This document shows, in pieces, positions 40,271 through 55,091 of a DNA stretch of 64,000 nt. Source of the stretch: Paenibacillus alvei DSM 29 (GTDB lineage: Bacteria; Bacillota; Bacilli; Paenibacillales; Paenibacillaceae). The notes beneath the pieces were generated by a model, which searched no databases, was not told the DNA's origin, and worked only from the letters and a program-made list of their open reading frames with translations. The stretch spans positions 62,001 to 126,000 of the forward strand of contig NZ_AMBZ01000011.1 in the NCBI RefSeq assembly GCF_000293805.1, given 5' to 3'. A program made the position numbers and the translations under genes. Numbering within the stretch: the stretch's first letter is position 1; every line of letters starts with the position of its first letter.

Positions 40271-41308
40271 TTAGCGATTAAGCAAGCTCCCCACATAACG
40301 AAGCAATTCATTTGCACAGACCGGGCAGTAGCCGTGCTCCTCCATCAGTCTGGCCGAGACCTCATTAATGCGTTTCAGCTGCGTTTCATCCGGCGTTTTC
40401 GTGGACGTCGTAATTTTGACAATGTCCTTCAGATCAGAGAATAGCTTCTTCTCCACGGCTTCGCGCAGCCGGTCATGACTGTTATAGTCGAACTTGCGTC
40501 CTTTGCGAGAGTATGAGGACAACCGTATGAGAATTTCCTCACGGAACGCTTTTTTTGCATTTTCCGATACGCCAATCTGCTCCTCGATGGAACGCATCAG
40601 CCGCTCATCCGGATCCAGCTCCTCGTCTGTAAGCGGATCACGTAACTTCTTCCAATTGCAGAACGCCTCAATATTGTCCAAATAATTCTCGAACAGTGTT
40701 TTCGCCGACTCCTCGAACGAATAGACGAATGCCTTCTGCACTTCCTTCTTCGCAAGACTGTCATATTCTTTGCGAGCAATCGAGATGTAGTTGAGGTAGC
40801 GTTCCCGCTCTTCCTTGGTAATTGAAGCATGCTGATCCAATCCATCCTTTAGGGCACGCAATACATCTAATGCGTTAATGCATTGAAGGTTCTGCTTAAT
40901 AAGCGCACTCGATATCCGATTAATGACATACCGAGGATCTACGCCTGACATTCCTTCTTCGGTGAATTCACTTTGCATTTCCTTCAGATCATTTTCCTTA
41001 TAGCCTTCCACCTCTTCACCGTCGTACATTCGCATCTTCTTCACCAAATCCATACCCTGCTTCTTGCTTTCCTTCAAACGGGTCAAAATAGAGAAAATGG
41101 CGGCTGCCTTCAAGGCATGAGGTGCTATATGAACATGCCCCATGTCGCTCTGACCGATCAGCTTGGAATAGATACGCTCTTCCTGCGATACCTTCAAGTT
41201 ATACGGAATCGGCATGACAATCATACGAGATTGCAGCGCCTCATTTTTCTTATTGGCGATAAAACCTTTATACTCGGCCTCATTCGTGTGTGCGATAATG
41301 AGTTCATC
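40271..41308 (-). pseudogene. prkA: PrkA serine protein kinase, C-terminal half, interrupted by prophage 2
   Basis: About 345 C-terminal residues of the 631-residue PrkA family. Recognisable from DELIIAHTNEAEYKGF through NKKNEALQSRMIVMPIPYN, DPRYVINRISSALI and KAFVYSFEESAKTLFENYLD to the conserved end LLRYVGSLLNR. The P-loop half is missing; the frame becomes foreign just upstream of 41308 (minus strand). PrkA is a sporulation-associated AAA+ protein in B. subtilis. The missing half should lie past the other end of prophage 2, outside the window. Confidence 0.93.
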
Positions 41309-41416
41309 TACTGTTCTATGATATTACCAAATTAAATTCCTTGCTGCAAAAGACTTTTGTGTCATTCGCATACTTGATGTCAACGATCATACCTATAATT
41401 TAAAGGAGTGAATCAG
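41309..41416. other. prkA / prophage 2 junction (one att site) and first phage promoter
   Basis: Recognisable prkA codons end at 41308 on the minus strand. The following AT-rich 100 bases hold TATAAT (41394-41399) before the first phage gene. No integrase gene lies at this end. The crossover core cannot be fixed without the other junction. Confidence 0.6.
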
Positions 41417-41572
41417 ATGGACAAGACGGTAAAGCGCGTCGCGTATTATATGAAGAAAGCCAATCAATACTCAACTGCCAGCATCGGTGCGGTAAAGGGG
41501 AAGAATCCCAAACCTAAGGCGAACCGCTTCAAACGGTTAATGCTGCTTAAACAATCAATTAAACGAGCATAA
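41417..41572 (+). CDS. 51-residue basic protein at the prophage 2 edge
   Basis: A Lys/Arg-rich small protein (MDKTVKRVAYYMKKANQYST start, KRLMLLKQSIKRA end). AAAGGAG lies nine bases before the ATG and TATAAT further up. Rightward, opposite to the rest of the early block. Size, charge and place beside the attachment site would suit an excision factor or a small DNA-binding protein, but no motif shows it. Confidence 0.6.
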   Translation: MDKTVKRVAYYMKKANQYSTASIGAVKGKNPKPKANRFKRLMLLKQSIKRA

Positions 41573-41578
41573 AAAATA

Positions 41579-41596
41579 GGCCGCTAAACAGCGGCC
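41579..41596. terminator. bidirectional terminator at the end of the early operon
   Basis: GGCCGC-TAAACA-GCGGCC, with TTTGCTTG on the plus side and TATTTTTTA on the minus side. It ends both the 51-residue gene and the leftward early operon. Confidence 0.85.
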
Positions 41597-41751
41597 TTTG
41601 CTTGTTCCTTATCCTGTTTGTTCTCAAATGAGTCTAATAATGCAGCAGCGCAAGCAGCGTGGAGGTCTTCCATAACCTTCTGCGGGTCTTCGTTGCCGAA
41701 ACTGATAATAATAGGACCATAATCGCCCTCTAATACGACAGGTTCGCGCAT
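41584..41751 (-). CDS. 55-residue acidic phage protein
   Basis: Starts MREPVVLEGDYGPIIISFGN after GGAGGGGAGG; longer upstream starts overlap the ArpU-like gene. C-terminal half is helical and charged. Last gene of the early operon, with its stop inside the terminator stem. Not recognised. Confidence 0.55.
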   Translation of the reverse strand: MREPVVLEGDYGPIIISFGNEDPQKVMEDLHAACAAALLDSFENKQDKEQAKAAV

Positions 41752-41771
41752 CTCCTCCCCTCCTGCTACAT

Positions 41772-42209
41772 TCATACTCGACAACGCTCGTCCATTATGA
41801 CGACTTCCAGAAGCACGTACAATTTTTCCAGTGCTGCATCTCTGCGCCGTCGATATGTGGGGTGGCCTATCCCCAGTTGATCCCGTACATGATAATCGCA
41901 AATGTAATCCTTTTCCATATAACGCATCTGTATAATTTCACTTTCACGCTCGTCCAACAACTCAACCGCTTGCTCTACCGTAGCTATCATCATTCTACGT
42001 TGCTCCGTGATCTCCATCTCACGAATGACCGCATCTTCGACTGGCTTACTAATAGCGTTCGTATTCCCGTGGAATCGCGGTTCATATGAAGGCGTGATCT
42101 TTGTCTCTGGCGTAACGCTCCCCATACGTTCCAACCGCTTAAACAGGCGATAGCGCGAGAATACCTTTTCTACTGCTGCACGTTTTTCTTTCAAATCATC
42201 AGGCATCAT
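41772..42209 (-). CDS. ArpU-family phage transcriptional regulator (late-gene regulator)
   Basis: About 145 residues. The C-terminal 70 have the sigma-factor-like layout of the ArpU family: AVELLDERESEIIQMRYMEK, DQLGIGHPTYRRRRDAALEK. Such proteins stand at the end of Gram-positive phage early operons and switch on packaging and structural genes. The start is the first of two ATGs at 42207-42209, after GGAAGGAG. In most phages the terminase follows; here the prophage ends instead. Confidence 0.8.
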   Translation of the reverse strand: MMPDDLKEKRAAVEKVFSRYRLFKRLERMGSVTPETKITPSYEPRFHGNTNAISKPVEDAVIREMEITEQRRMMIATVEQAVELLDERESEIIQMRYMEKDYICDYHVRDQLGIGHPTYRRRRDAALEKLYVLLEVVIMDERCRV

Positions 42210-42660
42210 TGCTATCTCCTTCCTGAAGGTTATGGTGTTCGTGTATGACTTCGTACTCAATCCACCATTCTTCATCAGTCCATTTGCGTAATGGGAATCT
42301 ATCAACTGTAAAGCATCCATCCTCACACAATTTAACTTCACGCTTGTTAATTACATCTAAATAAAATCCACACTCCACATCGTCCCATTTAACTATTGCT
42401 TTTTCGTTCCATCGGAATGTGTAGCCATAATCTAGTTCTTGTTCTCCAGTAATTAAGACTACAGCGTTATCATAGATCTCTTTGCCATTCCGGTCTGGAA
42501 GGCCTGTGTATTGACCTACTGTTTCAGGATCGACAATCGATCCATTAATAAAGATGAGATATCCTTCAGCAAACAAATTTTTGACCTTCCGATATGATTC
42601 ACCGCAAATCCATTCACCGTTTTCTTTCTTCCCACGGAACTTGATTGGTCTACTCATCAC
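42199..42660 (-). CDS. YopX-family phage protein
   Basis: A 153-residue protein opening RPIKFRGKKENGEWICGE and containing VGQYTGLPDRNGKEIYDNAV, the YopX signature. Common in early regions of Bacillales phages; function unknown. Overlaps the ArpU gene by 11 bases. Confidence 0.88.
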   Translation of the reverse strand: MMSRPIKFRGKKENGEWICGESYRKVKNLFAEGYLIFINGSIVDPETVGQYTGLPDRNGKEIYDNAVVLITGEQELDYGYTFRWNEKAIVKWDDVECGFYLDVINKREVKLCEDGCFTVDRFPLRKWTDEEWWIEYEVIHEHHNLQEGDSNDA

Positions 42661-42828
42661 CTATGCCCTCCCTTGAGAGATTTCCAACAATGCATGGAAT
42701 GTCTTCCGCTTTATATCTTCAAGCACTTCGAATACTTCATGAGGCGATAATCCTTCATCAACCATGCCCGTGAGTGCAGCCATGATAAGTTGGTGATTAA
42801 CATTGTTCATGTCCAATTGTTTACTCAT
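42661..42828 (-). CDS. 55-residue phage protein
   Basis: Helical acidic protein (MSKQLDMNNVNHQLIMAALT start). Fills the space between YopX and the next gene, whose stop it overlaps by eight bases. GGGGATCAGGGGATG-like purines precede the ATG. Not recognised. Confidence 0.6.
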   Translation of the reverse strand: MSKQLDMNNVNHQLIMAALTGMVDEGLSPHEVFEVLEDIKRKTFHALLEISQGRA

Positions 42829-43147
42829 CCCCTGATCCCCCCAGAATATTGATGATTGCTTTCAACTGATCCGTTGTGCATGAATGCCATTTGACGTTGG
42901 TCAATTTGCCGATCATACAACCTCTATTGATTTCGTCTCTTCGTTCCGGTGTAGCTTCCCAAATCGAACTCAAATTCCAACTTTGGCCTGTTTCTGTTCC
43001 GGTTGGTTTAAAAGTTGTATTTCCAATTTTGAAGCGCCTTGTTGGGGTAATACGATCTATCTTGGCGATGTACTTTCGGTAGGAGCTTGAAACAACTACC
43101 TCATCACCTTCTTGCAATGAATCAAGCCATTCCTGACGCTCATTCAT
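42821..43147 (-). CDS. phage protein of unknown function
   Basis: A 108-residue protein with a beta-rich start (LQEGDEVVVSSSYRKYIAKI), suggesting an SH3-like barrel. Overlaps the next gene downstream by eight bases and the upstream one by four (ATGA). Not recognised. Confidence 0.6.
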   Translation of the reverse strand: MNERQEWLDSLQEGDEVVVSSSYRKYIAKIDRITPTRRFKIGNTTFKPTGTETGQSWNLSSIWEATPERRDEINRGCMIGKLTNVKWHSCTTDQLKAIINILGGSGDE

Positions 43148-43419
43148 TCCATCCCCTCCAATGCGTTCTCGATGTCCAAAATTGCCGCCCGCGCTATATC
43201 TTCTATATAGAATGAATCCGTGTGTGTAATGATTGCTTCAAGTTCATCAATCGTGCCTTTGATTACTTTTTTCAAGCGTTCAACCTCTTTCCACGCTGAA
43301 AACTCAGCTCCAAGCACTCGTTCAACCTGTGCATCAAAGATAGGCATGTTGTACTTCGTGTAAGTCGTGAATCTCTTGCGAATGTGCTGCCGTTCTTCGA
43401 CTGTAAGTTGCTTGCTCAT
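43144..43419 (-). CDS. phage protein of unknown function
   Basis: A 91-residue, largely helical protein (VEERQHIRKRFTTYTKYN near the start). Start overlap ATGA with the next gene; GGGAGGG lies just before its own ATG. Not recognised. Confidence 0.6.
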   Translation of the reverse strand: MSKQLTVEERQHIRKRFTTYTKYNMPIFDAQVERVLGAEFSAWKEVERLKKVIKGTIDELEAIITHTDSFYIEDIARAAILDIENALEGME

Positions 43420-43442
43420 CCCGTTCCCTCCCTAGGGGCGCA

Positions 43443-44111
43443 TTAAGCGCCCACCGTATACATTCCGTCGTTGTAACGTCCGTCGCGGGAATCGTCAATT
43501 ACTTTGATCTGCTTTGATCCAAGCCAACCACTGTCATATGTGTGTCTAAATGCAGTGCCGTTCACGTACGTGTCATACTTTGGTGCTTTACCGATCAATG
43601 TCATTTGCTGACCTTTGATACATCCGGTTATAACCTCTACAACATCCCTTACTTGCGGCGCATCCGGTTGCGGCGCATTAACGAACTCCGTTGGAACCTC
43701 CTTGCCCAACGCCTTTGCCAACGCAATTGCCATGCCGATGTGGACATTGAACGCGTCTCCTTGCATGCATTTGGCGATTCCTCGACACGAAACTTTCTTG
43801 TCTCCAAATTCTCGAAGCAGACAAACGACGGTTCGCAACTTTCGATTTATTTTGAATTCTGCTTTATGCAAGAATATTCCACGTGTGAAAACCGTCTCTT
43901 CTGGATACCAATGATGCGGTTTGCCCAAACTCTTCACAAACTCCTTCGCCTTCTCAATCACCTGTTCACGTTTCAATGGCTCGGATTCAATCGTTGCAGC
44001 TTCTTCCAAATGCTTGCCCATTTCAGCCCATGCCGTTCTCATATCCGTAAATGTTTGTTCCATAATTCTCAATTGCTCCTGTACCTTTTCGATAATCGCA
44101 GTTGTATTCAT
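43443..44111 (-). CDS. phage early protein of unknown function
   Basis: A 222-residue protein with a helical N-terminal third (EQLRIMEQTFTDMRTAWAEM), a mixed middle containing KPHHWYPEETVFTRGIFLHK, and a small beta C-terminus. I do not recognise a family. TAGGAGGATC precedes the ATG. A copy of the phage operator (44141-44157) lies about 30 bases upstream, in the gap after the previous gene. Confidence 0.6.
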   Translation of the reverse strand: MNTTAIIEKVQEQLRIMEQTFTDMRTAWAEMGKHLEEAATIESEPLKREQVIEKAKEFVKSLGKPHHWYPEETVFTRGIFLHKAEFKINRKLRTVVCLLREFGDKKVSCRGIAKCMQGDAFNVHIGMAIALAKALGKEVPTEFVNAPQPDAPQVRDVVEVITGCIKGQQMTLIGKAPKYDTYVNGTAFRHTYDSGWLGSKQIKVIDDSRDGRYNDGMYTVGA

Positions 44112-44140
44112 AGTGATCCTCCTATTATTTTGGTTCTATG

Positions 44141-44157
44141 ACCAATAATTTTGGTGT
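44141..44157. promoter_or_regulatory. distant operator copy (prophage 2)
   Basis: ACCAATAATTTTGGTGT, matching the switch-region palindrome ACACCAAAATTTTTGGTGT except at its edge and centre. It lies in a gap inside the early operon, about 8 kb from the repressor gene. Confidence 0.6.
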
Positions 44158-44198
44158 TCAAGGCACAGAAGTGCCCATGTTACTCTGTATCACAAATG

Positions 44199-44522
44199 CT
44201 ATGCATTATCGTCCACAATCACCGTGCCGTCTTTCAATCGAATCGGCTTCAATGTACCAGAATAACTCCTTTTCAGCGCTCTAAGGCCATTTCTACATTC
44301 TTTCAAACTATTGTATACTCGGATCGTCGAAGGTCTCCCGCTGGAAGCAAAGGTATACAAGTTACCTTCTTCATCAAATACCCCAAGAATGTACAATTCA
44401 TTAATTTGAACAATTGGATTACAAGGTGTCACATGACCGCAATCCTCACACACAAATTTGATTCCTGTTTTGAAATCACCAACTAGTCTTTCATCACCAT
44501 AACACTCTGGGCAAATATCCAT
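44199..44522 (-). CDS. zinc-ribbon phage protein
   Basis: A 107-residue protein starting MDICPECYGDERLVG and containing CEDCGH near residue 25: a four-cysteine ribbon. The C-terminal part is beta-rich. Overlaps the upstream gene by one base. Not recognised further. Confidence 0.6.
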   Translation of the reverse strand: MDICPECYGDERLVGDFKTGIKFVCEDCGHVTPCNPIVQINELYILGVFDEEGNLYTFASSGRPSTIRVYNSLKECRNGLRALKRSYSGTLKPIRLKDGTVIVDDNA

Positions 44523-45370
44523 TATATAGCTGCCTCCTTTGCCTTCGCTTCCGCTGCAAGCCCCACATAGGCCGCTGCGTCCTCGTAGCTGTCCGCATGA
44601 TATGCTTCACGCTGCGCCGTTCTTACAAGCTTTAATAGCGTCATGAACGTCCACCCTTGTGCTTCCGTTAACTCCGTGCCATGAATCGCATTGAACGCTT
44701 GTACGGTTGCCTTCATGCTGCGTTCGCCATCTGGACTGTCATACGTTGCCGCGCGGTCTAACATGTGCTTTCGTGCAGCTTCCAACACGCCGTATGGTGT
44801 TACAGGCTTTTGCCAAGATGGATCAGGTGCATTCTCTTGTACTGGTATCGCCACTGGCGTTGCTGAAACGTCTTGTATATCTCCGATTGCTTTAGATTCT
44901 TCACAAGGTTCAGCCTCTTTAACTGATAGAAGCGTTTTGTACTCACGATTATAAAGAAATTCGCCAGCACCGTTACCGTAATGTCTATTACCGTACATGA
45001 TTTTTGTACATTCCAACACATCATGCATTTTGTATTGCTTTCCCTCAGGTGCTGGGTCTGGGTCAATCACAAGCATCAACTCACCTTTATAAGCGTGACG
45101 ATCCACCACATCATACAACTTCCCTTTGTATCCCCATTGACGGTCTGGCTGCTCTCCGTCAGCGAGTACGAGCCATTCCGGTGACCATTGGAAATTATAT
45201 TTGTCTTCCTTCAAAACGTAATTCCCTTTTTCGGTGATTCTCTCAATCTCATGTTGCTGCCCATTATAAGTCTTCATGGTGAAGTTGATATTAACGCCGT
45301 TGGAAATTCCCCCAAGCTCAGAATGTTCTAGGTTAATAATTACCTTTTGTCCAATCTTGAACTTTTTCAT
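44522..45370 (-). CDS. phage protein with a C-terminal DUF6378-like domain
   Basis: A 282-residue protein. The last 90 residues (ATYDSPDGERSMKATVQAFN, then FMTLLKLVRTAQREAYHADS and YEDAAAYVGLAAEAKAKEA) match the DUF6378 pattern found in many phages. The first 140 residues contain beta-rich segments with KGKLYDVVDRHAYKGELML, resembling a small barrel. It may be a fusion of two phage domains. Role unknown. Confidence 0.68.
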   Translation of the reverse strand: MKKFKIGQKVIINLEHSELGGISNGVNINFTMKTYNGQQHEIERITEKGNYVLKEDKYNFQWSPEWLVLADGEQPDRQWGYKGKLYDVVDRHAYKGELMLVIDPDPAPEGKQYKMHDVLECTKIMYGNRHYGNGAGEFLYNREYKTLLSVKEAEPCEESKAIGDIQDVSATPVAIPVQENAPDPSWQKPVTPYGVLEAARKHMLDRAATYDSPDGERSMKATVQAFNAIHGTELTEAQGWTFMTLLKLVRTAQREAYHADSYEDAAAYVGLAAEAKAKEAAI

Positions 45371-45383
45371 TGCTCACCCTCCG

Positions 45384-45758
45384 TTATTCGAATAGCTTTA
45401 TCTGTCCTTGCCCTAGATAAATGTTCGGGAAATACGGTTCTATCAAGGCACGTCGTTCGGTTAATTCATTTCGAATGAAATCATTTGCCGCTTGTATGGC
45501 GCCCTTTTCACTAAATAAACCAATATGGCATGTTGTTGCTTCACCATCCTGTGTGAAATGACCAATCACCGTAATACCAGCCTTATCCTTAGAAATGCGA
45601 ACCGCAATTCTATCTATTCCGTAACGCAGCTCGTAAGCTCCAATATAAGGGTAGTGCTGCCGTGCATCGTCCTGAACAATAACCACTGTGTGTGGATTGC
45701 CGATTGCGATATACACCGGATCAAAGCGCGTGTATATGTAGTTAATTGCTATTTCCAT
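45384..45758 (-). CDS. phage protein of unknown function
   Basis: A 124-residue alpha/beta protein (MEIAINYIYTRFDPVYIAIG start). Shares a one-base stop-start junction with the gene upstream. Not recognised. Confidence 0.58.
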   Translation of the reverse strand: MEIAINYIYTRFDPVYIAIGNPHTVVIVQDDARQHYPYIGAYELRYGIDRIAVRISKDKAGITVIGHFTQDGEATTCHIGLFSEKGAIQAANDFIRNELTERRALIEPYFPNIYLGQGQIKLFE

Positions 45759-46150
45759 CAGCGCTTGCCCTCCTTGTGGAACCGCGAAGTTAATTCTGTC
45801 TTGACGCGCGGCGTATACTTCCGACGTTCCATTTTTCGAATCGTCTTGTCCGTTTCCTGTGCCAGTTGTTTAAGCGCAATGTATGCCTTGTTCCAAGTCT
45901 CTGCCCACTGATTCAGCGGTTCTAGTAATTCCGCTGTCTCCTTGAATACACGGCGTTCCCGTCTGCACCTTTTCATATCAGCCGCCGTCTTAACCAATTC
46001 AACTGCATTCATTTCTAACAATTCGAGAGCATGATTGATATCGTTATATTCCAGCTCACAACGGCTCTGCCCCTCTTTAGCTGCTTCATACTCGTTCATA
46101 GCTTCATGGAGCAATTCAATGATTTCGGCTGCATAGTTACGCTTTGGCAC
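45758..46150 (-). CDS. coiled-coil phage protein
   Basis: A 130-residue helical protein with long charged heptads (NDINHALELLEMNAVELVKT) and a basic C-terminus. Overlaps the RuvC-like gene by 14 bases. Not recognised. Confidence 0.58.
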   Translation of the reverse strand: MPKRNYAAEIIELLHEAMNEYEAAKEGQSRCELEYNDINHALELLEMNAVELVKTAADMKRCRRERRVFKETAELLEPLNQWAETWNKAYIALKQLAQETDKTIRKMERRKYTPRVKTELTSRFHKEGKR

Positions 46151-46646
46151 TCTGCAACACCTTCCTTACAACTTCCTCCTGCTTCTTATTTGCGAATACC
46201 CCTGTGCGTACCGAACGCGCAATTTGAGCAAGCCCATACGCATCTCGAATATTATCGTCGCTATTCTCGTAACCGTAATTCTTGAATAGAGGTAAAATGA
46301 ACGCTTCTTTCTTAGCTTGATGATGTCCGGTAACGAATTTCTTCAATTGAGTTGGAGCAGCGTTGATATATGTCATTCCCATGCTCATAATCTTGCTACG
46401 CAGCATGTATTGCAATCCACACATCTGGTTAGCAAAGGAACCTTTCGAAGCAATGGAAAGCGACTCTATGCAAATCACATCATCATGATTGAGTTCGATC
46501 ACAATTTGTTCAACAAGATCACTTAAGCGTTTTACGTCTTCCGTGTGTTCGCTGGTGATCAACTTTTCAACCAATACCGTGCCATCAAGTCCGATCCGTA
46601 CAAACCCCGTCTTCGTGCTTGGGTCAATTCCTACAAAGTGTGTCAT
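46137..46646 (-). CDS. RuvC-like Holliday junction resolvase
   Basis: A 169-residue protein with an RNase H-fold resolvase pattern: VGIDPSTKTGFVRIG (first acidic residue), VICIESLSIASKGSFANQ (second), a KKEAFILPLFKNYG helix and NIRDAYGLAQIA (last acidic residue). Phage homologues debranch replication intermediates before packaging. Start overlaps the downstream end of its neighbour by four bases. Confidence 0.82.
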   Translation of the reverse strand: MTHFVGIDPSTKTGFVRIGLDGTVLVEKLITSEHTEDVKRLSDLVEQIVIELNHDDVICIESLSIASKGSFANQMCGLQYMLRSKIMSMGMTYINAAPTQLKKFVTGHHQAKKEAFILPLFKNYGYENSDDNIRDAYGLAQIARSVRTGVFANKKQEEVVRKVLQSAKA

Positions 46647-46969
46647 AGCGCCTTCCGCCCCCGTTCCTGCTTGTACCGATTGATCTTGTCAACGTGCAGT
46701 TGATTTACTTCACCCAACAACACTTCCAGCATTGCAACGGCCTTTTCAGGATCAATCGTTCTAGCTAATCCGTCATAAGCCAATCCAATTGCCGTCTGCA
46801 TGACGTCCTGCGCTTCAAGAAGAACCTTCAAAATACTAACCTTCTTACCGTCTGCCGTTTCGAAAGCAACCTCTGCCAGTTCCTCATGAACCTTCTGCAG
46901 CCGCTGCCGTAGCGTGTCATTTGTGTCGTAAAGCGGAAATTCCATTTTCACAGTCCGTAAAGCTGGCAT
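46643..46969 (-). CDS. MazG-like phage protein
   Basis: A 108-residue helical protein containing LQKVHEELAEVAFET and LLEAQDVMQTAIGLAYDGL. The E-E-L-x-E-x plus later E-x-x-D arrangement resembles MazG-type nucleotide pyrophosphohydrolases, which would sanitise the nucleotide pool. AAGGAGG precedes the ATG. The assignment is tentative. Confidence 0.5.
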   Translation of the reverse strand: MPALRTVKMEFPLYDTNDTLRQRLQKVHEELAEVAFETADGKKVSILKVLLEAQDVMQTAIGLAYDGLARTIDPEKAVAMLEVLLGEVNQLHVDKINRYKQERGRKAL

Positions 46970-47316
46970 ATAGAATCCTCCTTGATGTACTCTTTTTCAA
47001 TTTCCTTGAACAGCCGTTCATAGAAATGCTTCTTCTTCCGGTCTTGCTCTTGTTCAATCATTGCCGCCCCATTATCCATGCGTTGTGCGAGTCTTCGACG
47101 TAGTATTGCAGCTTCAAGCAGTCGAAACCCTTCCAAAAGCTCATCCATAAGGCTCATAATGGCGTCGCTTTCCGGTTCGGTGACGTCCCCATTCAGCAGG
47201 GCGAGAGTAGTTAAACGTTCTAAGGAAAGCCTATTCTCGCGCTCACTGCGTTCTAGGAGTGCTTCTATCTCTGCTTTGCATGCTGCTAGAATACGTTCGG
47301 CGGTCACTGGATACAT
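46948..47316 (-). CDS. phage protein of unknown function
   Basis: A 122-residue charged helical protein (LERLTTLALLNGDVTEPESD). Overlaps the MazG-like gene by 22 bases and follows the helicase by 17 bases. Not recognised. Confidence 0.55.
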   Translation of the reverse strand: MYPVTAERILAACKAEIEALLERSERENRLSLERLTTLALLNGDVTEPESDAIMSLMDELLEGFRLLEAAILRRRLAQRMDNGAAMIEQEQDRKKKHFYERLFKEIEKEYIKEDSICQLYGL

Positions 47317-47333
47317 CCTTTCCTTGCAAACTA

Positions 47334-48617
47334 CTATATGCGTTCCCTCATTCTTTGGATTGGTTTGACGAATGTAAGCCCGAATGTACCAATACCAGTC
47401 TGTCTACCTTTTGCCACGATAAAATCCACCTTTGTCTCAATCTTCTCCTTGTCGTTCTCGTCATGGTCGTAAAGGAAGATAATCATATCCGCGTCCTGTT
47501 CGATTGCACCGGAACCGCGAAGGTCTGACATGATTGGTGGTCGCTTCTCTCGTTCACTAGCTCGGTTGAGTTGTGCCAATAGAAAGATAGAACAACCAAT
47601 TTCACTAGCGAATATTTTCAGTTCCCGTGTTACTCTCGCAATCGCTTCGTGCGGCGCTTCGTTCTTGCCTGTCTGCATGTCAATCAAACCGAGATAATCT
47701 ATAAAGATGCAGGATAGTTTTCCGTGCTTTCGCTTGAGGGCTAGGCACTTTCGTTTGATGTAGTTCACATTGATTCTCGATCTATCGTCGATGTGAAATG
47801 TCATGCTGCGCAATGCATCAACCGCCTTTGCAAACCGTTCACGCTGTTCGTCGTTGAACTCGTTTCTCATCACCATTTTGGCGTTCAGTCCACCTATGGA
47901 TGCTACCAATCTGTCCGTAAGTTCTTTCCTAGCCATCTCCAAGGAGAAGAATACTGGAACGCCGAATTCCTTCTGCTTCGCTATGTTTCGCAGTATCTGC
48001 AATGCTATAGCTGTCTTACCTGTTCCTGGCCTTGCCGCCAAAACGATTAGGCGATTGTCACCGATGCCTTGCATCCATTTGTCGATATCTTGGAATCCTG
48101 TCAGCGGTGTATTTTTGATTTCACCAGACAATTTGTCTTCGTAATATTCCAATAAGTAATCTTTGAACGTCTGCTCATCTGCTGCATACTCAGGCATTGC
48201 ACGCGCTGCCAGTTCAATAACTCCTTGCGGTGTGAAATCGTCCGTTTGTGCATATTCGAAAATCTCTTGTGCAACCGCTGCTGCCTTGCGTCTCATGGAC
48301 AACTCTTTTACCTGATTGGCGTAGTCCATCACCAGTTCCCCGCTCACCGGAGTGTTAAGAATCATCTTTTGCAACCCTTCTGGTTCTGCCACTCCTTGGA
48401 ATGCGCCGTTGCGTTTTGCGTGAAGTATGAGTTTTGGTGTTGTCAGCTCATCTTTTGATGCAAGCTCGGTCGCAATTTCAAACATTTTCGAAAAACACAT
48501 TTCTTGGAAGTCGTCTGCCGTGATTAAAGCAGCCACTTCCTCGAATCTTAACGGGTGCTTACCGCACGCTGCGATAAGCGACATTTCATACTGGAAAGTG
48601 TCATTCGTCGAAGCCAT
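47334..48617 (-). CDS. replicative DNA helicase (DnaB family)
   Basis: A 427-residue helicase. The N-terminal helical domain runs to about residue 110. The RecA-like core has Walker A VLAARPGTGKTAIALQI near residue 195, Walker B CIFIDYLGLIDM and the DnaB signature SDLRGSGAIEQDADMIIFL near residue 365. It unwinds phage DNA at the fork; the gene upstream encodes the likely loader/initiator. Overlaps that gene by 17 bases. Confidence 0.93.
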   Translation of the reverse strand: MASTNDTFQYEMSLIAACGKHPLRFEEVAALITADDFQEMCFSKMFEIATELASKDELTTPKLILHAKRNGAFQGVAEPEGLQKMILNTPVSGELVMDYANQVKELSMRRKAAAVAQEIFEYAQTDDFTPQGVIELAARAMPEYAADEQTFKDYLLEYYEDKLSGEIKNTPLTGFQDIDKWMQGIGDNRLIVLAARPGTGKTAIALQILRNIAKQKEFGVPVFFSLEMARKELTDRLVASIGGLNAKMVMRNEFNDEQRERFAKAVDALRSMTFHIDDRSRINVNYIKRKCLALKRKHGKLSCIFIDYLGLIDMQTGKNEAPHEAIARVTRELKIFASEIGCSIFLLAQLNRASEREKRPPIMSDLRGSGAIEQDADMIIFLYDHDENDKEKIETKVDFIVAKGRQTGIGTFGLTFVKPIQRMRERI

Positions 48618-49128
48618 AGTCCTTCACCTCTGTTTCATCCGGTCTCGGTGGAAGCTGTGGGTGCTTCTGTTCTTCTGTCTTCTGCTCCGGTGCTTCGTTC
48701 AAATATCCTTCGAATTTAGAAGCTGCGAACAATGTTGCAGGACGTAGATACTTCCGCATATTGGAGTCATTCAGCCATTCCGCGCATTTGTGGTCAATCA
48801 CTCGCTTGAAGTCGTCAACGCTGAATCCTTCCTTCAAACGTGCCGTTACAAGTGACTTTGTCGCTGACGTGTTTGACTTGTACTTCGTCCCTGCCTTCTC
48901 ATTCAAGTAAGCAATAATTTCCGCAATCGAATCATCTTTATTGGTTTTTGAACCAATATTTTTGGTGTTCTGGGTATGAGTAGACGCAACATCACCAGTA
49001 GCAAGGACTTCGGGCAGAATGTACCAACCGTTGTCATCCAGTGCAACCAACCCTGTTGCCATAAGGTCAAATTGCGTAGAAGTGTGCAGCTTGTGGAACA
49101 AATCCCACTTCAAATATACTTGTTGCAT
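48601..49128 (-). CDS. phage replication initiator with conserved phage C-terminal domain
   Basis: A 175-residue protein. Residues about 68-145 match the conserved phage replisome-organiser C-terminal domain (AEIIAYLNEKAGTKYKSNTS, then KEGFSVDDFKRVIDHKCAEW and LRPATLFAASKFEGYLN). The N-terminal 50 residues look like half of a winged helix. An operator-like palindrome and a second ATTGGTT/AACCAAT repeat lie inside the gene at 48941-48969; in many phages the replication origin is embedded in this gene, so this may be origin DNA. Confidence 0.85.
   Translation of the reverse strand: MQQVYLKWDLFHKLHTSTQFDLMATGLVALDDNGWYILPEVLATGDVASTHTQNTKNIGSKTNKDDSIAEIIAYLNEKAGTKYKSNTSATKSLVTARLKEGFSVDDFKRVIDHKCAEWLNDSNMRKYLRPATLFAASKFEGYLNEAPEQKTEEQKHPQLPPRPDETEVKDYGFDE
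48951..48969. promoter_or_regulatory. operator-like palindrome inside the replication gene
   Basis: AACCAATATTTTTGGTGTT, the same core as the switch operators, next to ATTGGTTTTTGAACCAAT (48940-48957). Either a dispersed repressor site or part of the replication origin. Confidence 0.6.
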
Positions 49129-49140
49129 AGGAATCTCCTC

Positions 49141-49545
49141 CTAGAATGGCATGTCATCATCAGAAATTTCGATTGGCTTACCATCATCTCCGAATGGGTC
49201 ACCAGCATGAGCGTTATTCATCACATCGCCCCACTCAATCACTCGAATATTGTCCGCTACAACCTCCGTCACGAAAACCTTCTTGCCTTCGGTGTTCTCG
49301 TAATTACGAACTTGGATGCGTCCAGTTACTGCTTGCAACTTGCCTTTCTTGACGTTGTTGGCTGCGAACTCTGCCGATGCTCTCCATAATACTACAGGAA
49401 TGAAGTCCGTTTCTTTCTTGCCATCAGAACCAGTGAATGGTCTGTCACACGCTAATGTGAATGTTGCAACCGCTGTTCCGTTTCCTGTGTATTTCAATTC
49501 TGGTTCCCTTACTGCGCGTCCTATCAGCGTAACGTTATTAATCAT
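49141..49545 (-). CDS. ssb: single-stranded DNA-binding protein
   Basis: A 134-residue OB-fold SSB: MINNVTLIGRAVREPELKYT, ATFTLACDRPF, DFIPVVLWRASAEFAANNVK, and the acidic tip DDDMPF that docks partner proteins. Thirteen bases after the Rad52-like gene. Works with the annealing protein and helicase. Confidence 0.95.
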   Translation of the reverse strand: MINNVTLIGRAVREPELKYTGNGTAVATFTLACDRPFTGSDGKKETDFIPVVLWRASAEFAANNVKKGKLQAVTGRIQVRNYENTEGKKVFVTEVVADNIRVIEWGDVMNNAHAGDPFGDDGKPIEISDDDMPF

Positions 49546-49558
49546 ATGTTAATTCCCC

Positions 49559-50323
49559 CTATCTTTTAGATGCTCTCTGGCAAATATCAAGCATAGTTTT
49601 GTAATCACGTTTCTGTTCCTTCTGCTTGTCGATCCAAGCTTGTGCCTGAGCATCATCCAGACCGCCAGCTTTCAACAGCCTAACAACCTCCCAACGCTGC
49701 TTTTGCTTTTCGGTCATTTGCCTTTTCTGTGTGCCTGTATCATTGGAAGATTGTTGACTACCACCATCATTGTTAGAAGGGGAATTGTTCTCCTGCTTCC
49801 CTTGTGTCTTTTGCGTGCTTCTCTGTGTTTTGTTGCCCGTATTAGTTTGTTGGCCTGTATACCCCGTAGGAAGTGCCCACTGTGGCAATTTAGGCGTTTG
49901 TGCTAACCTGTAGCTCTTACCTATCGGTTCAATAGGAACCCACACATTTTCAAGCTTGTACAGGTATCGACCAATGCCCCACTGGTATCCAGCGCGCTTC
50001 ATTGAATCTGATAGTCCACCCTTTACCGCTTCTGTCTGGCTGTCGTCAGCTCCATCCCATTTCCATATCCAGTCCTCACCGAAACGAATACCGATGCCGC
50101 ACAGTTGAGAATGTCCCTTCCACTCTCTATAATTGTTCTGCCAATTGAATGCACCAACCACCGAATCCAGACGGTTCATGATAGCTCGGTTCGTCACATA
50201 AGCAAGGGCAATTCCTTTCGTTTTTCCCCCGTTCGTGCTGCCCACACGCCATTCAATATCTTCGGGCGGGAATGGCTCTGCTAGCTCTGCCATGACCTGT
50301 TCAACCGTTTTGCCGTTAATCAT
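49559..50323 (-). CDS. Rad52/Rad22-family single-strand annealing protein
   Basis: A 254-residue protein. Residues 1-140 carry the Rad52-type pattern: EWRVGSTNGGKTKGIALAYV, GAFNWQNNYREW, GIGIRFGEDWIWKWDGADDS and AVKGGLSDSMKRAGYQWGIG followed by RYLY. The remainder is a Gln/Asn/Thr-rich linker and a short helical end. It gives prophage 2 a recombination system unlike the RecT pair of prophage 1. Overlaps the Gp157 gene by four bases. Confidence 0.88.
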   Translation of the reverse strand: MINGKTVEQVMAELAEPFPPEDIEWRVGSTNGGKTKGIALAYVTNRAIMNRLDSVVGAFNWQNNYREWKGHSQLCGIGIRFGEDWIWKWDGADDSQTEAVKGGLSDSMKRAGYQWGIGRYLYKLENVWVPIEPIGKSYRLAQTPKLPQWALPTGYTGQQTNTGNKTQRSTQKTQGKQENNSPSNNDGGSQQSSNDTGTQKRQMTEKQKQRWEVVRLLKAGGLDDAQAQAWIDKQKEQKRDYKTMLDICQRASKR

Positions 50324-50805
50324 CGGATCATCAACCCCAGTTCACCTTGCACAATAGTTACCCCGCGTACCTTCTTGCCAGCCTTCCAAGCATCCATAAT
50401 GGCCTTCTTATTTACGGTTGGTTCAGGTTTAGTCTTGAATTCAAGCGGCACTGCTTTGATATTCAAAACTTCTACACGCTCCCGTGGTTTAGTCACGGAC
50501 ACGGTGAACATAGGTGATTTATGCTTATCCATACCGATGCGCATCATATTAACCTTGATAGCGTCTTTCATACGTTTTGCTTCGTTTTCAAGACTCGTCT
50601 TGCGTTGTGCAAGTCTTGTTGACTCATTTGCCACTGCTTCTGCCTCGGCTTCAAGGGTGCGAATCACTTTGCAATATCCGTCCAGCTTGTCGGAAATAGC
50701 TCCTTCCATACCTTCCAGCATTGCAGCATAGTCCACACCTTCGCCGCCTTCTTGCGCCATTTCCAGCAAGTCGCGGTATTGTTCTGTCAGGTCGTACAAT
50801 CTCAT
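50320..50805 (-). CDS. siphovirus Gp157-family protein
   Basis: A 161-residue protein with a long coiled coil (CKVIRTLEAEAEAVANESTR) and the family C-terminal block KVNMMRIGMDKHKSPMFTVS, then VPLEFKTKPEPTVNKKAIMD. Usually sits beside annealing proteins in phage recombination cassettes, as here; linked by some to phage resistance in streptococci, mechanism unclear. Confidence 0.85.
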   Translation of the reverse strand: MRLYDLTEQYRDLLEMAQEGGEGVDYAAMLEGMEGAISDKLDGYCKVIRTLEAEAEAVANESTRLAQRKTSLENEAKRMKDAIKVNMMRIGMDKHKSPMFTVSVTKPRERVEVLNIKAVPLEFKTKPEPTVNKKAIMDAWKAGKKVRGVTIVQGELGLMIR

Positions 50806-50841
50806 ATGCGTTGATCCCCTTTCAATTTGTTTGTTCGTTTT

Positions 50842-51555
50842 TCAGACGAGTATGAATATATAACAGCCCTTTACGTGTAACCATCGTTTGATGGTTTGGC
50901 GGTAGTGAATCAATTGGTCTTTTTTCGTTGCTAGTTCTAGGTAGCCCGATCTAATTGCCGATTGAGTAGGGAGGTTGAAAATGCTCTTTCTCCCGACCAT
51001 CCCCCAATCTCGTAGTTTCTTAAATAATTGAATTGGACCAATAACATGCCCGTGCTCACTGATCCATTTTGAAGCTTCGCTCACTGACATGCTTCCTTCT
51101 GACTCCGTGATAGCGAGTGCAAATGAAACATATGGCTCTTGTGTGTCAATGACGGCTTGCAACTCTTTATTTCGCTCCTTCTCATTCTTCAAACGTTGCA
51201 ACGTCTCGATGAATAAGTCGGGATTGTCCAATAGCTCGTCAGCGGCGTAGACGCCATGCTTGCGAATAGAAGGAATAACTTCATAAGTTACCCACCGCTT
51301 GAATTGTTTTGCTTCTGGCTTCCTGCTGCCCAAGACCAACGAATAAAGTCCCGATTCGTTAACAATGTTTGATTCTCCATAAAGACCACCTAAGTTGAAC
51401 TTAGCCACCTCGTCATTATCGAGTCGTTGAAGCGCAACTGTTGTGTTCGTGATATCAAGTGCCTTACAAACATCTTTCGCAACCCACCAAGGGTTGCCGT
51501 CCTTCAAAACAACACGCACCTTATGAATTCCGAAATTGAACAATTGAGTTGTCAT
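50842..51555 (-). CDS. phage antirepressor: BRO-N plus KilAC-type domain
   Basis: A 237-residue protein. BRO-N domain, residues 1-110: FNFGIHKVRVVLKDGNPWWV, AKDVCKALDITNTTVALQRL, ESGLYSLVLGSRKPEAKQFK. The C-terminal domain (SMSVSEASKWISEHGHVIGP, LFKKLRDWGMVGRKSIFNLP) is of KilAC type. Antirepressor or early DNA-binding role expected. Overlaps the small gene upstream by four bases. Confidence 0.87.
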   Translation of the reverse strand: MTTQLFNFGIHKVRVVLKDGNPWWVAKDVCKALDITNTTVALQRLDNDEVAKFNLGGLYGESNIVNESGLYSLVLGSRKPEAKQFKRWVTYEVIPSIRKHGVYAADELLDNPDLFIETLQRLKNEKERNKELQAVIDTQEPYVSFALAITESEGSMSVSEASKWISEHGHVIGPIQLFKKLRDWGMVGRKSIFNLPTQSAIRSGYLELATKKDQLIHYRQTIKRWLHVKGCYIFILV

Positions 51556-51794
51556 TTGTGAACCTCCGTTCTAAGTGGATAAACTTTAGTACCGTGCAAC
51601 TTGAAATGGTGATTGTAAAGCGTATACTGCCAACCTTTGATAAACTCACTTGAAACTAGCTCCCTATTTACGAAAAACAAGTAAGATTCATATTGCTTGT
51701 GCAACGTATCCGTGATCAACTCCCATGCAGCTTGCAATTGTTCTTGTTCACGCTGCTTGCGCTGTTGCTGCTTTTTTGCAATTCGTTTTTTCAC
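51552..51794 (-). CDS. small basic phage protein
   Basis: An 80-residue protein with a Lys/Arg/Gln-rich first 20 residues (KKRIAKKQQQRKQREQEQL). GTG start (51792-51794) preceded by TATGGAGGTG. Not recognised. Confidence 0.6.
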   Translation of the reverse strand: MKKRIAKKQQQRKQREQEQLQAAWELITDTLHKQYESYLFFVNRELVSSEFIKGWQYTLYNHHFKLHGTKVYPLRTEVHK

Positions 51795-51812
51795 AGCTAC
51801 ACCTCCATAAAG

Positions 51813-51911
51813 TTAGGCAATCAATGCCAAGGTAAATCCAGTACCTAAAAGTACCCCAATCAAGAACGTCAACACAAGATGGACACAGTGCTTTGTCTCT
51901 TGATACGTCAC
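51813..51911 (-). CDS. 32-residue single-helix membrane peptide
   Basis: GTG at 51909-51911 after GGGAGGTG; encodes MTYQETKHCVHLVLTFLIGV ending LGTGFTLALIA, one hydrophobic helix. First gene after the operator pair at 51927-52022. A 61-codon ORF in another frame over the same bases lacks a site. The leader and the helix are the support. Confidence 0.5.
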   Translation of the reverse strand: MTYQETKHCVHLVLTFLIGVLLGTGFTLALIA

Positions 51912-51926
51912 GCTTCGCACCTCCCA

Positions 51927-52022
51927 ACACCAAAATTTTTGGTGTATTGAATAAAAAATATTAAAATTATTTAAAACCATTTAAAACATAATGAAAAAAT
52001 ATTGCACCAAAAATGTTGGTGT
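51927..52022. promoter_or_regulatory. pair of switch operators upstream of the early operon
   Basis: Perfect 19-base palindrome ACACCAAAATTTTTGGTGT (51927-51945) and a close copy GCACCAAAAATGTTGGTGT (52004-52022), separated by a very AT-rich 58 bases. They frame the presumed leftward early promoter between the Cro-like gene and the operon. Confidence 0.75.
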
Positions 52023-52084
52023 GATATACTTCATTTGTAATTAAAAGTAACCTTTAATAATAACACCGATATATGAGCGATCAC

Positions 52085-52285
52085 TCATACATTTCGGTAA
52101 AGATCATGGAACAGTTCATCAACACTTGCGCCTAGCTTCTTAGCTATCTGGAACGCTCCCAACATTGTTGGTGTAGATGACCCGCAGCAGATGTTACGAA
52201 CGGTTTTCTCAGTTTTGCCAATATCAGCAGCAAAGCGAGTATAACCACCATACGCCAAAATTAATTGATTAAGACGATCACGCAC
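52085..52285 (-). CDS. Cro-like small XRE regulator
   Basis: A 66-residue HTH protein (GYTRFAADIGKTEKTVRNIC near residues 14-33). GTG start at 52283-52285, seven bases after AAAGGAGG; an upstream ATG frame lacks a site. Divergent from the repressor gene with one operator in between. Likely Cro of prophage 2. Confidence 0.75.
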   Translation of the reverse strand: MRDRLNQLILAYGGYTRFAADIGKTEKTVRNICCGSSTPTMLGAFQIAKKLGASVDELFHDLYRNV

Positions 52286-52340
52286 CTTTCGTCCTCCTTT
52301 CTTTTTGGGTATAAAATTTTGGGTTCGTGGGAACAACTAA

Positions 52341-52370
52341 AGAATATCACACCAATATTTTTGGTGTCAA
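52341..52370 (-). promoter_or_regulatory. leftward Cro promoter overlapping an operator
   Basis: Minus-strand TTGACA (52365-52370) and TATTCT (52341-52346), 18-base spacer. The operator ACACCAATATTTTTGGTGT (52349-52367) fills the spacer exactly. Confidence 0.7.
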
Positions 52371-52410
52371 CACTTTATTCTATTTTTTTTGAAAAAGGAG
52401 AATATTGCAG

Positions 52411-52791
52411 ATGGATATCGACAATATGGATGTGAAGGAATACAGAAAATTGGTGGGTATTCGAATTGAAGAATTGCGTATGAAATACGGATTACAAAAA
52501 AATGAGGTTGCAGCCAAGTTAGGGGTAGTTCCGGGGAATATATATAACTACGAAGTGGGAAAGGCTTCACCACCACCGCAAATATTAGTTCAAATGGCAG
52601 AACTGTTTCATACTACAGTTGATTATCTTACTTTGAAAACGGACGATCCTGCACCGCGGGGAGAAACGGACGATATCGACGTAGAACAACTGGTCAACAA
52701 GGTTTGGAAATATAAAGGCGTAGAACTGACAGAAGAAGAGAAAATGAAAGTTTATAACTTATTGAAAAACGGGCTTGACCTTATCAAATAA
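52411..52791 (+). CDS. prophage repressor, XRE HTH without peptidase domain
   Basis: About 126 residues. HTH near residues 18-55 (YGLQKNEVAAKLGVVPGNIY, then NYEVGKASPPPQ), then an acidic linker and a short helical C-terminus (IDVEQLVNKVWKYKGVELTE). There is no S24/LexA domain, so DNA damage cannot act through self-cleavage. ATG at 52411 lies after AAAAAGGAG. Expected to bind the ACACCAA/TTGGTGT operators. Confidence 0.8.
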   Translation: MDIDNMDVKEYRKLVGIRIEELRMKYGLQKNEVAAKLGVVPGNIYNYEVGKASPPPQILVQMAELFHTTVDYLTLKTDDPAPRGETDDIDVEQLVNKVWKYKGVELTEEEKMKVYNLLKNGLDLIK

Positions 52792-52808
52792 AGGTTAAGC
52801 CCCTTTCT
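52772..52808 (+). terminator. terminator overlapping the repressor 3' end
   Basis: GGGCTTGACCTT pairs with AAGGTTAAGCCC, followed by CTTTCTTT. The 5' half of the stem is inside the last codons of the repressor gene. Confidence 0.75.
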
Positions 52809-52922
52809 TTATGTATCATTTTCCCTCCTTGACTCGACGATGGTTTCTAGGACTTCTACTGCCTCTGTAGTGTCATATCCTGCTTCCTCTAGCGTTTTCA
52901 GTAGTTGTTCCACGTCAAGCAT
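52809..52922 (-). CDS. 37-residue acidic peptide opposite the repressor, candidate antirepressor
   Basis: MLDVEQLLKTLEEAGYDTTE, ending ESRRENDT. GGGGAGG lies six bases before the ATG at 52920-52922. Its D-V-E-Q-L start resembles the I-D-V-E-Q-L segment in the C-terminal part of the adjacent repressor. A near-consensus SOS box (52950-52963) lies 28 bases upstream. The inferred role is damage-induced interference with the repressor; the sequence shows only the ORF, its leader and the box. Confidence 0.5.
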   Translation of the reverse strand: MLDVEQLLKTLEEAGYDTTEAVEVLETIVESRRENDT

Positions 52923-52949
52923 ATTTAGCCTCCCCGCGACATATATATA

Positions 52950-52963
52950 CGAACATGAGTTCT
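52950..52963. promoter_or_regulatory. LexA/DinR-like SOS box
   Basis: CGAACATGAGTTCT, against the Bacillus consensus CGAAC-N4-GTTCG; the inner GAAC-ATGA-GTTC is a perfect inverted repeat. A TTGACA (minus strand, near 52995-53000) and TATAAT-like sequence lie upstream for leftward transcription, though their spacing is not canonical. Confidence 0.5.
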
Positions 52964-53152
52964 CTTTTGTGTATGTTTATTATACCACGTACTGTCAAGT
53001 TTCATTTTATATGTGTTCATAGTTTCGTCATAAAACGAAAGAAGGATTTCATGAATGGGTGTCGAATCTATAATTCATTATTGAAAAACGGGGCGGGGTC
53101 TTTTTTAGAAAAAGACTATGTGTCTTTAAAAGCACATCAGGGGTGAGTATCT

Positions 53153-53365
53153 ATGAAGAATACTTTCAAAGTAAGAATGTGGATGCCAATAGAACAATTC
53201 AAGAAGTATAGATACAGAAAAGGTGGAGGAGGATGGGCAAGCCTTACTCCTATTGAGGGAGCAATGGAAATTCGTATAGATGAATTCCAACTGAGTTTGC
53301 AACGTGTAGATGATGAAGGTAATCCAATTCCAGATGGTTGTTTGTTGATCGATCCAGAATTTTAA
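53153..53365 (+). CDS. 70-residue protein of unknown function near the repressor
   Basis: Rightward gene between the switch and the lysis cassette: MKNTFKVRMWMPIEQFKKYR, later EIRIDEFQLSLQRVDDEGNP. Small beta-strand-rich protein. AGGGGTGAG precedes the ATG. Such isolated genes near repressors are often expressed in the lysogen; function not evident. Confidence 0.6.
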   Translation: MKNTFKVRMWMPIEQFKKYRYRKGGGGWASLTPIEGAMEIRIDEFQLSLQRVDDEGNPIPDGCLLIDPEF

Positions 53366-53375
53366 TATACATAAC

Positions 53376-53416
53376 AAGAGAGAGCCGAAGGAGATTAATC
53401 CTACAGCTCTCTTTTT
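53376..53416. terminator. terminator between the 70-residue gene and the lysis cassette
   Basis: GAGAGAGC pairs with GCTCTCTTTTT, with AGGA/TCCT inside. A-rich on one side and T-rich on the other, so usable by both convergent genes. Confidence 0.8.
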
Positions 53417-53426
53417 CTATATAATG

Positions 53427-54071
53427 TTAATTCATCGTAATATCTACTCTCTTCGTATTGGGATCAAAAACTACATATGCACCCAACGCTTGAGCCACAG
53501 AACGAACAGGACAGCGTGTAACGCCGTTTATGATATCACCCTTTCCAACATTCACTCCATTTACGTAAACGTCCACAGCAGGGGCTACAGTAGGCGCAGG
53601 AGTTCCCTTGATGAGTTTGACAAGATAATCCCACCGTTTGAGCAGCCTTTGAGGGCAGTTCTTGCCGCTCCAATGCTTATGTGGGACTACATTCTCCAAT
53701 GGGATGCTGTGATCATTCATAAGCTTAGAAACAAGCCACGCAACGTTCTGCAATGTCTTCTCGTAATCTCCATCACTATTCACACATGTTTCAATGCCGA
53801 TGGATTGCGTGTTCCCTTTGCCTGTACCGTCACCAGCATGCCAACCTTGTTCATTGGTACGCAAATGTTGGTATACCTGCTTATCATCAACAGTATAATG
53901 CCATGATGCTTGACGCCCACCACTTCCATTCAATATGTAGTTGGCATGTCGTTCCGCGTCAGCTCCTGCATCTGTGTTATCCGTTTCGTGAACTGTGATG
54001 TACATCGGTTTCATTGGCTTGTCCGGTTTATTGCTTCTTCCATCTGGTAATAAACGTTGTTTAATTTCCAT
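53427..54071 (-). CDS. endolysin: N-acetylmuramoyl-L-alanine amidase with a stalk-type domain
   Basis: A 214-residue lysin. Amidase_2 domain, residues 20-150: MYITVHETDNTDAGADAERH, SWHYTVDDKQVYQHL, GNTQSIGIETCVN, and HKHWSGKNCPQRLL with the zinc His and Cys. The C-terminal 45 residues (VYVNGVNVGKGDIINGVTRC, VRSVAQALGAYVVFD) are a copper-amine-oxidase-N-like stalk domain common in Paenibacillus surface enzymes. Overlaps the holin gene by 11 bases. Confidence 0.9.
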   Translation of the reverse strand: MEIKQRLLPDGRSNKPDKPMKPMYITVHETDNTDAGADAERHANYILNGSGGRQASWHYTVDDKQVYQHLRTNEQGWHAGDGTGKGNTQSIGIETCVNSDGDYEKTLQNVAWLVSKLMNDHSIPLENVVPHKHWSGKNCPQRLLKRWDYLVKLIKGTPAPTVAPAVDVYVNGVNVGKGDIINGVTRCPVRSVAQALGAYVVFDPNTKRVDITMN

Positions 54072-54474: not shown

Positions 54475-54499
54475 GTCATTTCCCCCTCGAATTAAAATA

Positions 54500-54521
54500 G
54501 CCCCCGACATTAGCCGAGGGC
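54500..54521 (-). terminator. terminator between XkdX and holin
   Basis: Minus-strand GCCCTCGGC-TAAT-GTCGGGGGC with wobble pairs, followed by TATTTTAAT. It would separate tail from lysis transcription or allow partial read-through. Confidence 0.65.
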
Positions 54522-54555
54522 ACAAAAATACGCTGACCGTCTATGCGATAGCGCC

Positions 54556-54696: not shown

Positions 54697-54711
54697 TCAA
54701 ATCACCCCTTC

Positions 54712-55080: not shown

Positions 55081-55091
55081 CCGTATCCCTC

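Follow-up and report, generated by a model that had tools for sequence, protein, structure and literature searches.

When a sporulation gene runs without warning into phage DNA, has it been lost, or is it kept in a form from which it can be rebuilt? prkA poses this question in the stretch of 64,000 nucleotides analysed here (C15:62001-126000, referred to hereafter as the window, from a genome of 6.83 Mb in 25 contigs). We describe where the gene is broken and by what, how often the same break recurs in other genomes, and which genes the relatives of the integrase beside it have entered.

prkA is carried in three pieces on two contigs

The gene is interrupted by two phage elements at two exact points, leaving three pieces on two contigs (Table 1). 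On the minus strand, homology to intact relatives stops at about 41308, much as a first-pass annotation of the window had read it, and the phage genes of the first element (element A) follow; the crossover itself is placed at 41304-41305, the apparent prkA match up to 41308 being a GAT of element A that resembles the host codon. A search of the strain's own genome with the PrkA AAA domain recovered one match in the window (C15:103060-103425), two more at C15:136088-136591 and C20:10145-10513, and a fourth, weak one (25.1 bits, in a 783-residue frame on C8). A complete prkA elsewhere, which the annotation had named as the finding that would speak against an interruption, was absent from this search of all contigs.

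The annotation had further expected the first half of prkA, together with the integrase, beyond position 64000. The integrase of element A and the middle piece do lie there on C15, but the first half is itself split, with the N-terminal piece on C20; prkA is thus in three pieces because a second element (element B) divides the missing 5' part at Glu141. Precise recombination at both GA cores joins the pieces into 631 codons and a stop, with no internal stop codon. This is the length of intact PrkA in a relative (G015), and the joined protein has Glu at positions 141 and 288, as relatives do. In another relative, G001, one unbroken run of host genes has its counterparts on C15 as far as prkA and on C20 past it (matches below 55% identity left out), from which we take C15 and C20 to be neighbours.

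Close to the 3' piece, at 36119-37066 of the window, is an ORF with many near-identical repeats (ITAQTHGAHQNVVPNSFQPTGQVQS); Paenibacillus agilis (G005) has a repeat-rich ORF at the corresponding place beside prkA.

Table 1. Coordinates of the prkA and spoVR pieces, the site 2 cores and selected genes of the elements (window positions unless a contig is named)
Feature	Position	Strand	Remarks
Serine recombinase of spoVR element (element C), 368 aa	5707..6813	+	frame seems broken at A7 run
spoVR 3' piece	7168..8427	+	
spoVR 5' piece	C15:17458-17625		about 51.5 kb from 3' piece
prkA 3' piece	40271..41305	-	codons 288-631 and stop; end of AAA domain and PrkA C-terminal domain PF06798
Site 2	41304..41305	-	two-base crossover GA (TC on + strand), first two bases of codon Glu288
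Site 2, other core copy	C15:136116-136117		outside window
Element A	C15:103306-136117; window part 41306..64000		temperate phage, 32,812 bp
54-aa basic ORF at element A edge	41408..41572	+	
Small ORF (MREPVV...) near right att	41584..41751	-	weakly like ~70-aa ORF of five other elements
ArpU-like transcription activator, element A	41772..42191	-	phrog_248, E 1.7e-23
RuvC-like resolvase, element A	46137..46646	-	phrog_159, E 3.7e-26
DnaB-like helicase, element A	47334..48617	-	phrog_19, E 5.7e-75
Baseplate wedge protein, element A	56480..57520	-	phrog_6, E 7e-77
prkA middle piece	C15:136118-136558		codons 141-287
prkA N-terminal piece	C20:10157-10576		codons 1-140

Element A and the two attachment sites

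The genes of element A include those for the terminase small and large subunits, portal, major head and baseplate wedge proteins, DnaB, and RuvC-like and ArpU-like proteins; judged by eye from its ORFs, the element reads as a complete contractile-tail phage. Its integrase gene is intact (544 aa), lies beside the middle prkA piece and ends 16 bp from the crossover. The product is a large serine integrase, which across 97% of its length shares 36.8% identity with YokA of SPBc2; its closest solved relatives are YokA (PDB 9dxh, E 3.6e-104) and a YokA-YotN fusion (9dxd). A resolvase domain is present, and Ser31, presumably the catalytic serine of this domain, is invariant in all seven aligned integrases of the clade; by full-length homology and this conserved serine, the protein is assigned to the SprA/YokA clade.

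Site 1 is the codon of Glu141, and the crossover there falls at a GA dinucleotide as it does at site 2. Because the core shared by the two ends of element A is short, the dyad of attP locates the crossover better than direct repeats do. With attP inferred by taking one arm from each junction, 18 of 30 arm positions are symmetric about GA for element A (6 of 10,000 shuffles were as good) and 25 of 30 for element B (none of 10,000).

Five other elements have an ORF of about 70 residues next to the right att, with identities of 91, 96, 54 and 42% to the first of the five. The small ORF near the right att of element A is 30% identical to that same member; it matches no PHROG or Pfam family, and the G193 member of the set, the one compared with solved structures, has no match in the PDB and none to solved YotN up to E 10. 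The small ORF is only a candidate directionality factor. The 54-residue ORF at the element A edge was also considered as a shared directionality factor and set aside: among the tblastn matches listed it has no clear relative, the best in other elements being at E 1.3 or worse.

Glu288 is a recurrent phage attachment site

Within the genus, prkA is split in two of 19 genomes. A census of the family found a PrkA match in 379 of 394 genomes (15 have none), and the check for splits covered, among the matches listed, nine new genomes that had two matches, the better of them at an E weaker than 1e-100; genomes with two matches of which the best is strong (for example G297, 3.8e-126) were taken as having paralogues or as outside the check. 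At least eight of the 379 are split at site 2 (G000, G005, G153, G159, G193, G196, G212 and G311). All eight are broken at the GA of codon 288, the automatic alignment of G159 setting its right side one codon off. Five of the seven others have both prkA halves on one contig, and rejoining yields 631 residues in six of the seven, the DNA of G153 ending at residue 619. Three further candidates (G125, G249 and G270) were excluded, as their pieces touch or overlap and look frameshifted. Among the split genomes examined, the split at site 1 occurs in this strain only.

A clade integrase adjoins the att site in seven of the eight split genomes. The exception is G196, whose left contig stops after 58 bp of the element; its clade integrase is found on a different contig, next to an attP junction. 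Identity between integrase A and the six others in the alignment is 52-56%. When 18-38 kb were fetched for each of the eight elements and compared by megablast, 24 of the 28 pairs shared no DNA, and the remaining four pairs, all among G153, G159, G193 and G196, shared 2-6 kb. Since the phage DNA is unrelated in 24 of the 28 pairs, the insertions at site 2 are largely independent. Glu288 is a recurrent phage attachment site and, if the reading favoured below holds, its codon offers a reusable landing site to many phages across Paenibacillus and Terribacillus. The integrase of the P. agilis element (L045:14548-16203) sits on the opposite att side and in the opposite orientation relative to those of the other six elements whose integrase adjoins the junction.

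Element B and phages of Paenibacillus larvae

Element B occupies Glu141, between the N-terminal and middle pieces of prkA. Only its two ends are visible, because the contigs end 3.3 kb (C15) and 10.2 kb (C20) from the junctions and do not overlap; no middle or structural genes could be assigned to it from C21-C25, which were read by eye and of which C21 and others contain phage-like genes. Its integrase adjoins the site and reads frameshifted, with about four shifts (at A7, at A8 and at two more A-rich spots) relative to the intact integrase of P. larvae phage Riker. The unshifted part of 296 residues is 73% identical to the integrases of the P. larvae phages Riker, Likha and phiERICV and 72.6% identical to that of Norbert; other matches in the genus reach at most 38%, and viral contigs gave nothing beyond three loci at 29%. 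The attP of Riker contains ATGCATGAGGAGCC, which occurs once each in five of 30 loci of relatives, in four of them at prkA site 1, the fifth being unplaced (L037), and the phiERICV record has ATGCATGAGGA at both of its ends. Read from attP, this suggests that Riker-type phages of P. larvae also use prkA site 1.

The shifts in integrase B may come from sequencing error or from real decay. The integrase of the spoVR element (at its A7 run) and a host transporter also look shifted, while the long ORFs of C15 and C20 contain 14 A/T runs of exactly seven that are unbroken, and in alignments with G001 all 12 other host genes compared (three of them in part) keep their frame. The transporter, at 21111-22390 of the window, consists of two overlapping frames and looks like a single frameshift. 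As integrase B reads frameshifted, the rebuilding of prkA in this particular strain is uncertain.

Near its att, element B encodes a LytTR regulator, an AgrB-like protein, a membrane protein and a resolvase of about 130 residues (C15:137129-139656, equivalent to L005:17129-19656), a set that may be a phage-borne agr-like signalling cassette. Resolvase ORFs of similar length (129-134 aa) occur at C15:20304, C5:909938, C9:460432, C17:25 and C24:221; one of these is near the left end of the spoVR element, and the surroundings of C24:221, the only ones read, are similar to the LytTR/AgrB-like set.

Relatives of the integrase lie in other mother-cell genes

Scanning species genomes with the alignment of the seven prkA-site integrases returned 18 loci. 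Nine adjoin a prkA fragment, four of them already in the alignment and five new (P. albiflavus, P. tyrfis, P. ginsengihumi, P. sp. J31TS4 and Terribacillus aidingensis); at each of L110, L116, L117, L118 and L120 a single junction was seen. The remaining nine comprise two attP junctions, two loci in spoVFB, three in spsM, one in gerE and one at a transporter fragment. Both attP junctions lie within contigs, in P. ottowii (L113, L114) and P. terrae PIC167 (L112). P. ottowii has a second copy 38 kb away, identical over 7,651 bp, so its attP would represent a tandem double lysogen, a circular phage form or an effect of assembly.

In two species of Siminovitchia (L121/L160/L162 and L123/L159/L161), spoVFB, encoding dipicolinate synthase B, is split beside clade integrases, the two halves being on the same contig in each species, at distances of about 24 and 95 kb. 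spsM stands beside three Bacillus loci (L122, L125 and L126, read by eye; the L122 match to PseB is below the cut-off). In P. selenitireducens the integrase adjoins the first residues of gerE (1fse, E 4.3e-7) and, going by coordinates, the remaining half of the gene may be a short GerE-like segment on C12 (L127). These three genes are named as mother-cell genes interrupted by elements in the passages cited from earlier work (PMC4191935, PMC6957869).

Taken together, mother-cell sporulation genes account for 15 of the 16 host junctions (prkA 9, spsM 3, spoVFB 2, gerE 1), and six of these 15 loci are outside Paenibacillus. Because a scan seeded with prkA-site integrases biases the share of prkA, the fairer count leaves prkA out, and then six of seven host junctions are in mother-cell genes; counted by distinct target, the clade has entered four mother-cell genes and one transporter. 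The Paenibacillus prkA set and its two attP copies form one group of 13 rows in a tree of 21 integrases, whereas the prkA integrase of Terribacillus clusters with those from spoVFB (98/96); prkA may therefore have been entered on more than one occasion. These integrase and junction sequences support the view that the clade targets mother-cell genes non-randomly. Such a leaning would give a testable answer to the question of whether sporulation genes are hit by chance or are safe to enter because the mother cell is discarded.

spoVR and its link to prkA

A further sporulation gene, spoVR, is split in this genome by element C (Table 1). The break is at the same place in three of 19 genomes of the genus, and the two others (G008 and G010) have open recombinase frames of 489 and 478 residues beside spoVR. 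The first-pass annotation had argued that two prophages in two sporulation genes 34 kb apart are unlikely to reflect neutral chance. The junctions of the integrase clade described above support the thrust of this argument; the spacing adds nothing to it. prkA and spoVR share a contig in 13 of 18 other genomes of the genus (at a distance of 11-91 kb in 12 of them and of 209 kb in the other), and since this gene order is ancestral, their distance is no evidence of targeting.

We take PrkA and SpoVR to belong to the families of E. coli YeaG and YcgB, and the Pfam models of both match in E. coli. YeaG, YeaH and YcgB are described in the cited part of PMC2375023 as a co-conserved triplet, on which ground prkA and spoVR may act together. 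An extended reading would have a PrkA-SpoVR module split by three independent elements, with three excisions by different serine integrases, two of which would act in the same gene, forming a multi-input gate, at the level of DNA, on a late sporulation function, and a single integrase clade that radiated over mother-cell genes as its preferred niche. We consider this extension rather unlikely.

Excision as a proposed route to an intact prkA

The reading we favour, and consider fairly probable, is that prkA, with its two occupied sites, is rebuilt by excision of phage in the mother cell. The anatomy is established by the sequence itself; judging from position and homology, we infer that each element was inserted by its own integrase: element A would have entered Glu288 by means of the large serine integrase of the SPbeta YokA/SprA clade, and element B would have entered Glu141 through the integrase akin to those of the P. 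larvae phages. Each insertion is a conservative crossover at GA, so that excision would restore the frame without a scar. As in skin and SPbeta, integrase and directionality factor would together excise the phage in the mother cell; because that cell is discarded, PrkA would be rebuilt while the spore genome keeps its prophage. prkA would need two excisions here, and three would be needed if spoVR is counted, a gene whose family and that of prkA are conserved together.

Several observations are consistent with this proposal. The elements lie within the coding sequence of a sporulation gene (codons 141 and 288), with a site-specific recombinase gene beside att, and the attP junctions in two related assemblies point to a circular or tandem form of the phage. 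The link of PrkA to sporulation, on which the first-pass annotation relied, agrees with work in Bacillus subtilis, where the cited section reports that prkA is under sigma-E control and that a knockout sporulates less well (PMC4415436); deletion of prkA in B. anthracis is likewise reported to give heat-sensitive spores (PMC13001217, in the part cited). That excision would take place in the mother cell during sporulation is drawn by analogy with SPbeta, which has a related integrase and is described as excising there (PMC4191935, as excerpted). Two points speak against it: a crude scan of six elements turned up nothing resembling a sigma-E or sigma-K promoter ahead of either the integrase or the small ORF, and integrase B reads frameshifted. 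If the proposal holds, prkA becomes one of the few genes that are put back together when a phage excises, and the doubly split gene raises the question of whether a cell can time several excisions within one developmental window.

Other explanations of the locus have to be set against this one. A misassembly at 41308, a possibility raised by the first-pass annotation, has next to no credibility: the assembly is broken into 25 contigs, and the two contig ends at which element B is cut off do not overlap, but the same GA/codon junction recurs in seven other genomes of the family, five of which carry both halves on one contig, the att architecture is exact, and flanking gene order is conserved. 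The phages might instead be ordinary lysogens that use a conserved stretch of a gene dispensable for growth, with prkA restored only on stress induction or phage loss and no link to sporulation, an account we regard as possible but somewhat unlikely. It would explain element A too, because that element carries a wide range of phage genes and looks like a complete phage. The attP junctions in two assemblies may equally reflect plain induction or tandem lysogeny, the promoter scan found nothing specific to sporulation, one integrase of the clade sits in a transporter gene, and the cited part of a study of P. larvae phages places Fern_IDv1 in lepA, which is not a sporulation gene (PMC12453123). 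Against it stand the repeated presence of one clade in mother-cell genes, at 15 of 16 junctions or six of seven without prkA, and the mother-cell excision described for SPbeta and its related integrase (PMC4191935, in the portion cited).

It is also conceivable, if slightly less so than plain lysogeny, that the elements are trapped and decaying: with the integrase of element B lost, prkA would be a permanent null and PrkA dispensable in this lineage. The broken state of integrase B, when set beside its intact counterpart in Riker, fits such a loss, as do the 14 seven-base A/T runs that stay unbroken in the long ORFs of both contigs and the constant frame of all 12 host genes compared with G001 (three in part). 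The shifted integrase of the spoVR element and the shifted host transporter would, however, be in keeping with homopolymer sequencing error; each of the three prkA pieces is an open frame, and together they join perfectly; and an integrase could act on element B from elsewhere.

Comparison with known systems

Abe et al. reportedly described, in 2013, two intervening elements in mother-cell genes, vrin and vfbin. These occupy spoVR of Geobacillus thermoglucosidasius and spoVFB of B. weihenstephanensis, respectively, according to the excerpt cited (PMC4191935), and the present data resemble them by target gene: spoVR is split in the window too, and spoVFB is split beside clade integrases in two species of Siminovitchia. 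Neither vrin nor vfbin is in prkA.

The nearest likeness is to SPbeta in spsM of B. subtilis, with its integrase SprA/YokA and directionality factor SprB/YotN: in both cases a prophage sits in a mother-cell gene, excision restores (or here would restore) the frame, and the integrases are related (36.8% over 97%, PDB 9dxh). The two differ in that the target here is prkA, the host gene has a second insertion, and the directionality factor is a candidate only. The likeness observed between the prkA elements and SPbeta is in the integrase.

Other mobile elements in sporulation genes are skin (sigK), gin (gerE), phi12-5 (kamA) and yin (yabG), as set out in the parts cited of four reports (PMC4191935, PMC6957869, PMC5595907, PMC10747680), rejoining being shown there for skin and gin (PMC4191935, PMC6957869, PMC5595907). 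None of these papers names prkA, and the cited portions describe no gene that is split twice. Xeni_IDv2 of P. larvae, placed in gerE in the section cited, is a further phage in a sporulation gene (PMC12453123); Riker, Norbert, Likha and phiERICV differ in that their integration into prkA of P. larvae is deduced from attP. Our search of the open-access literature found no report of prkA as an interrupted gene. Relative to elements of the skin and SPbeta kind, what is new here is the target gene prkA, the occupation of two sites within one gene, and an integrase clade that appears to lean towards genes of the mother cell.
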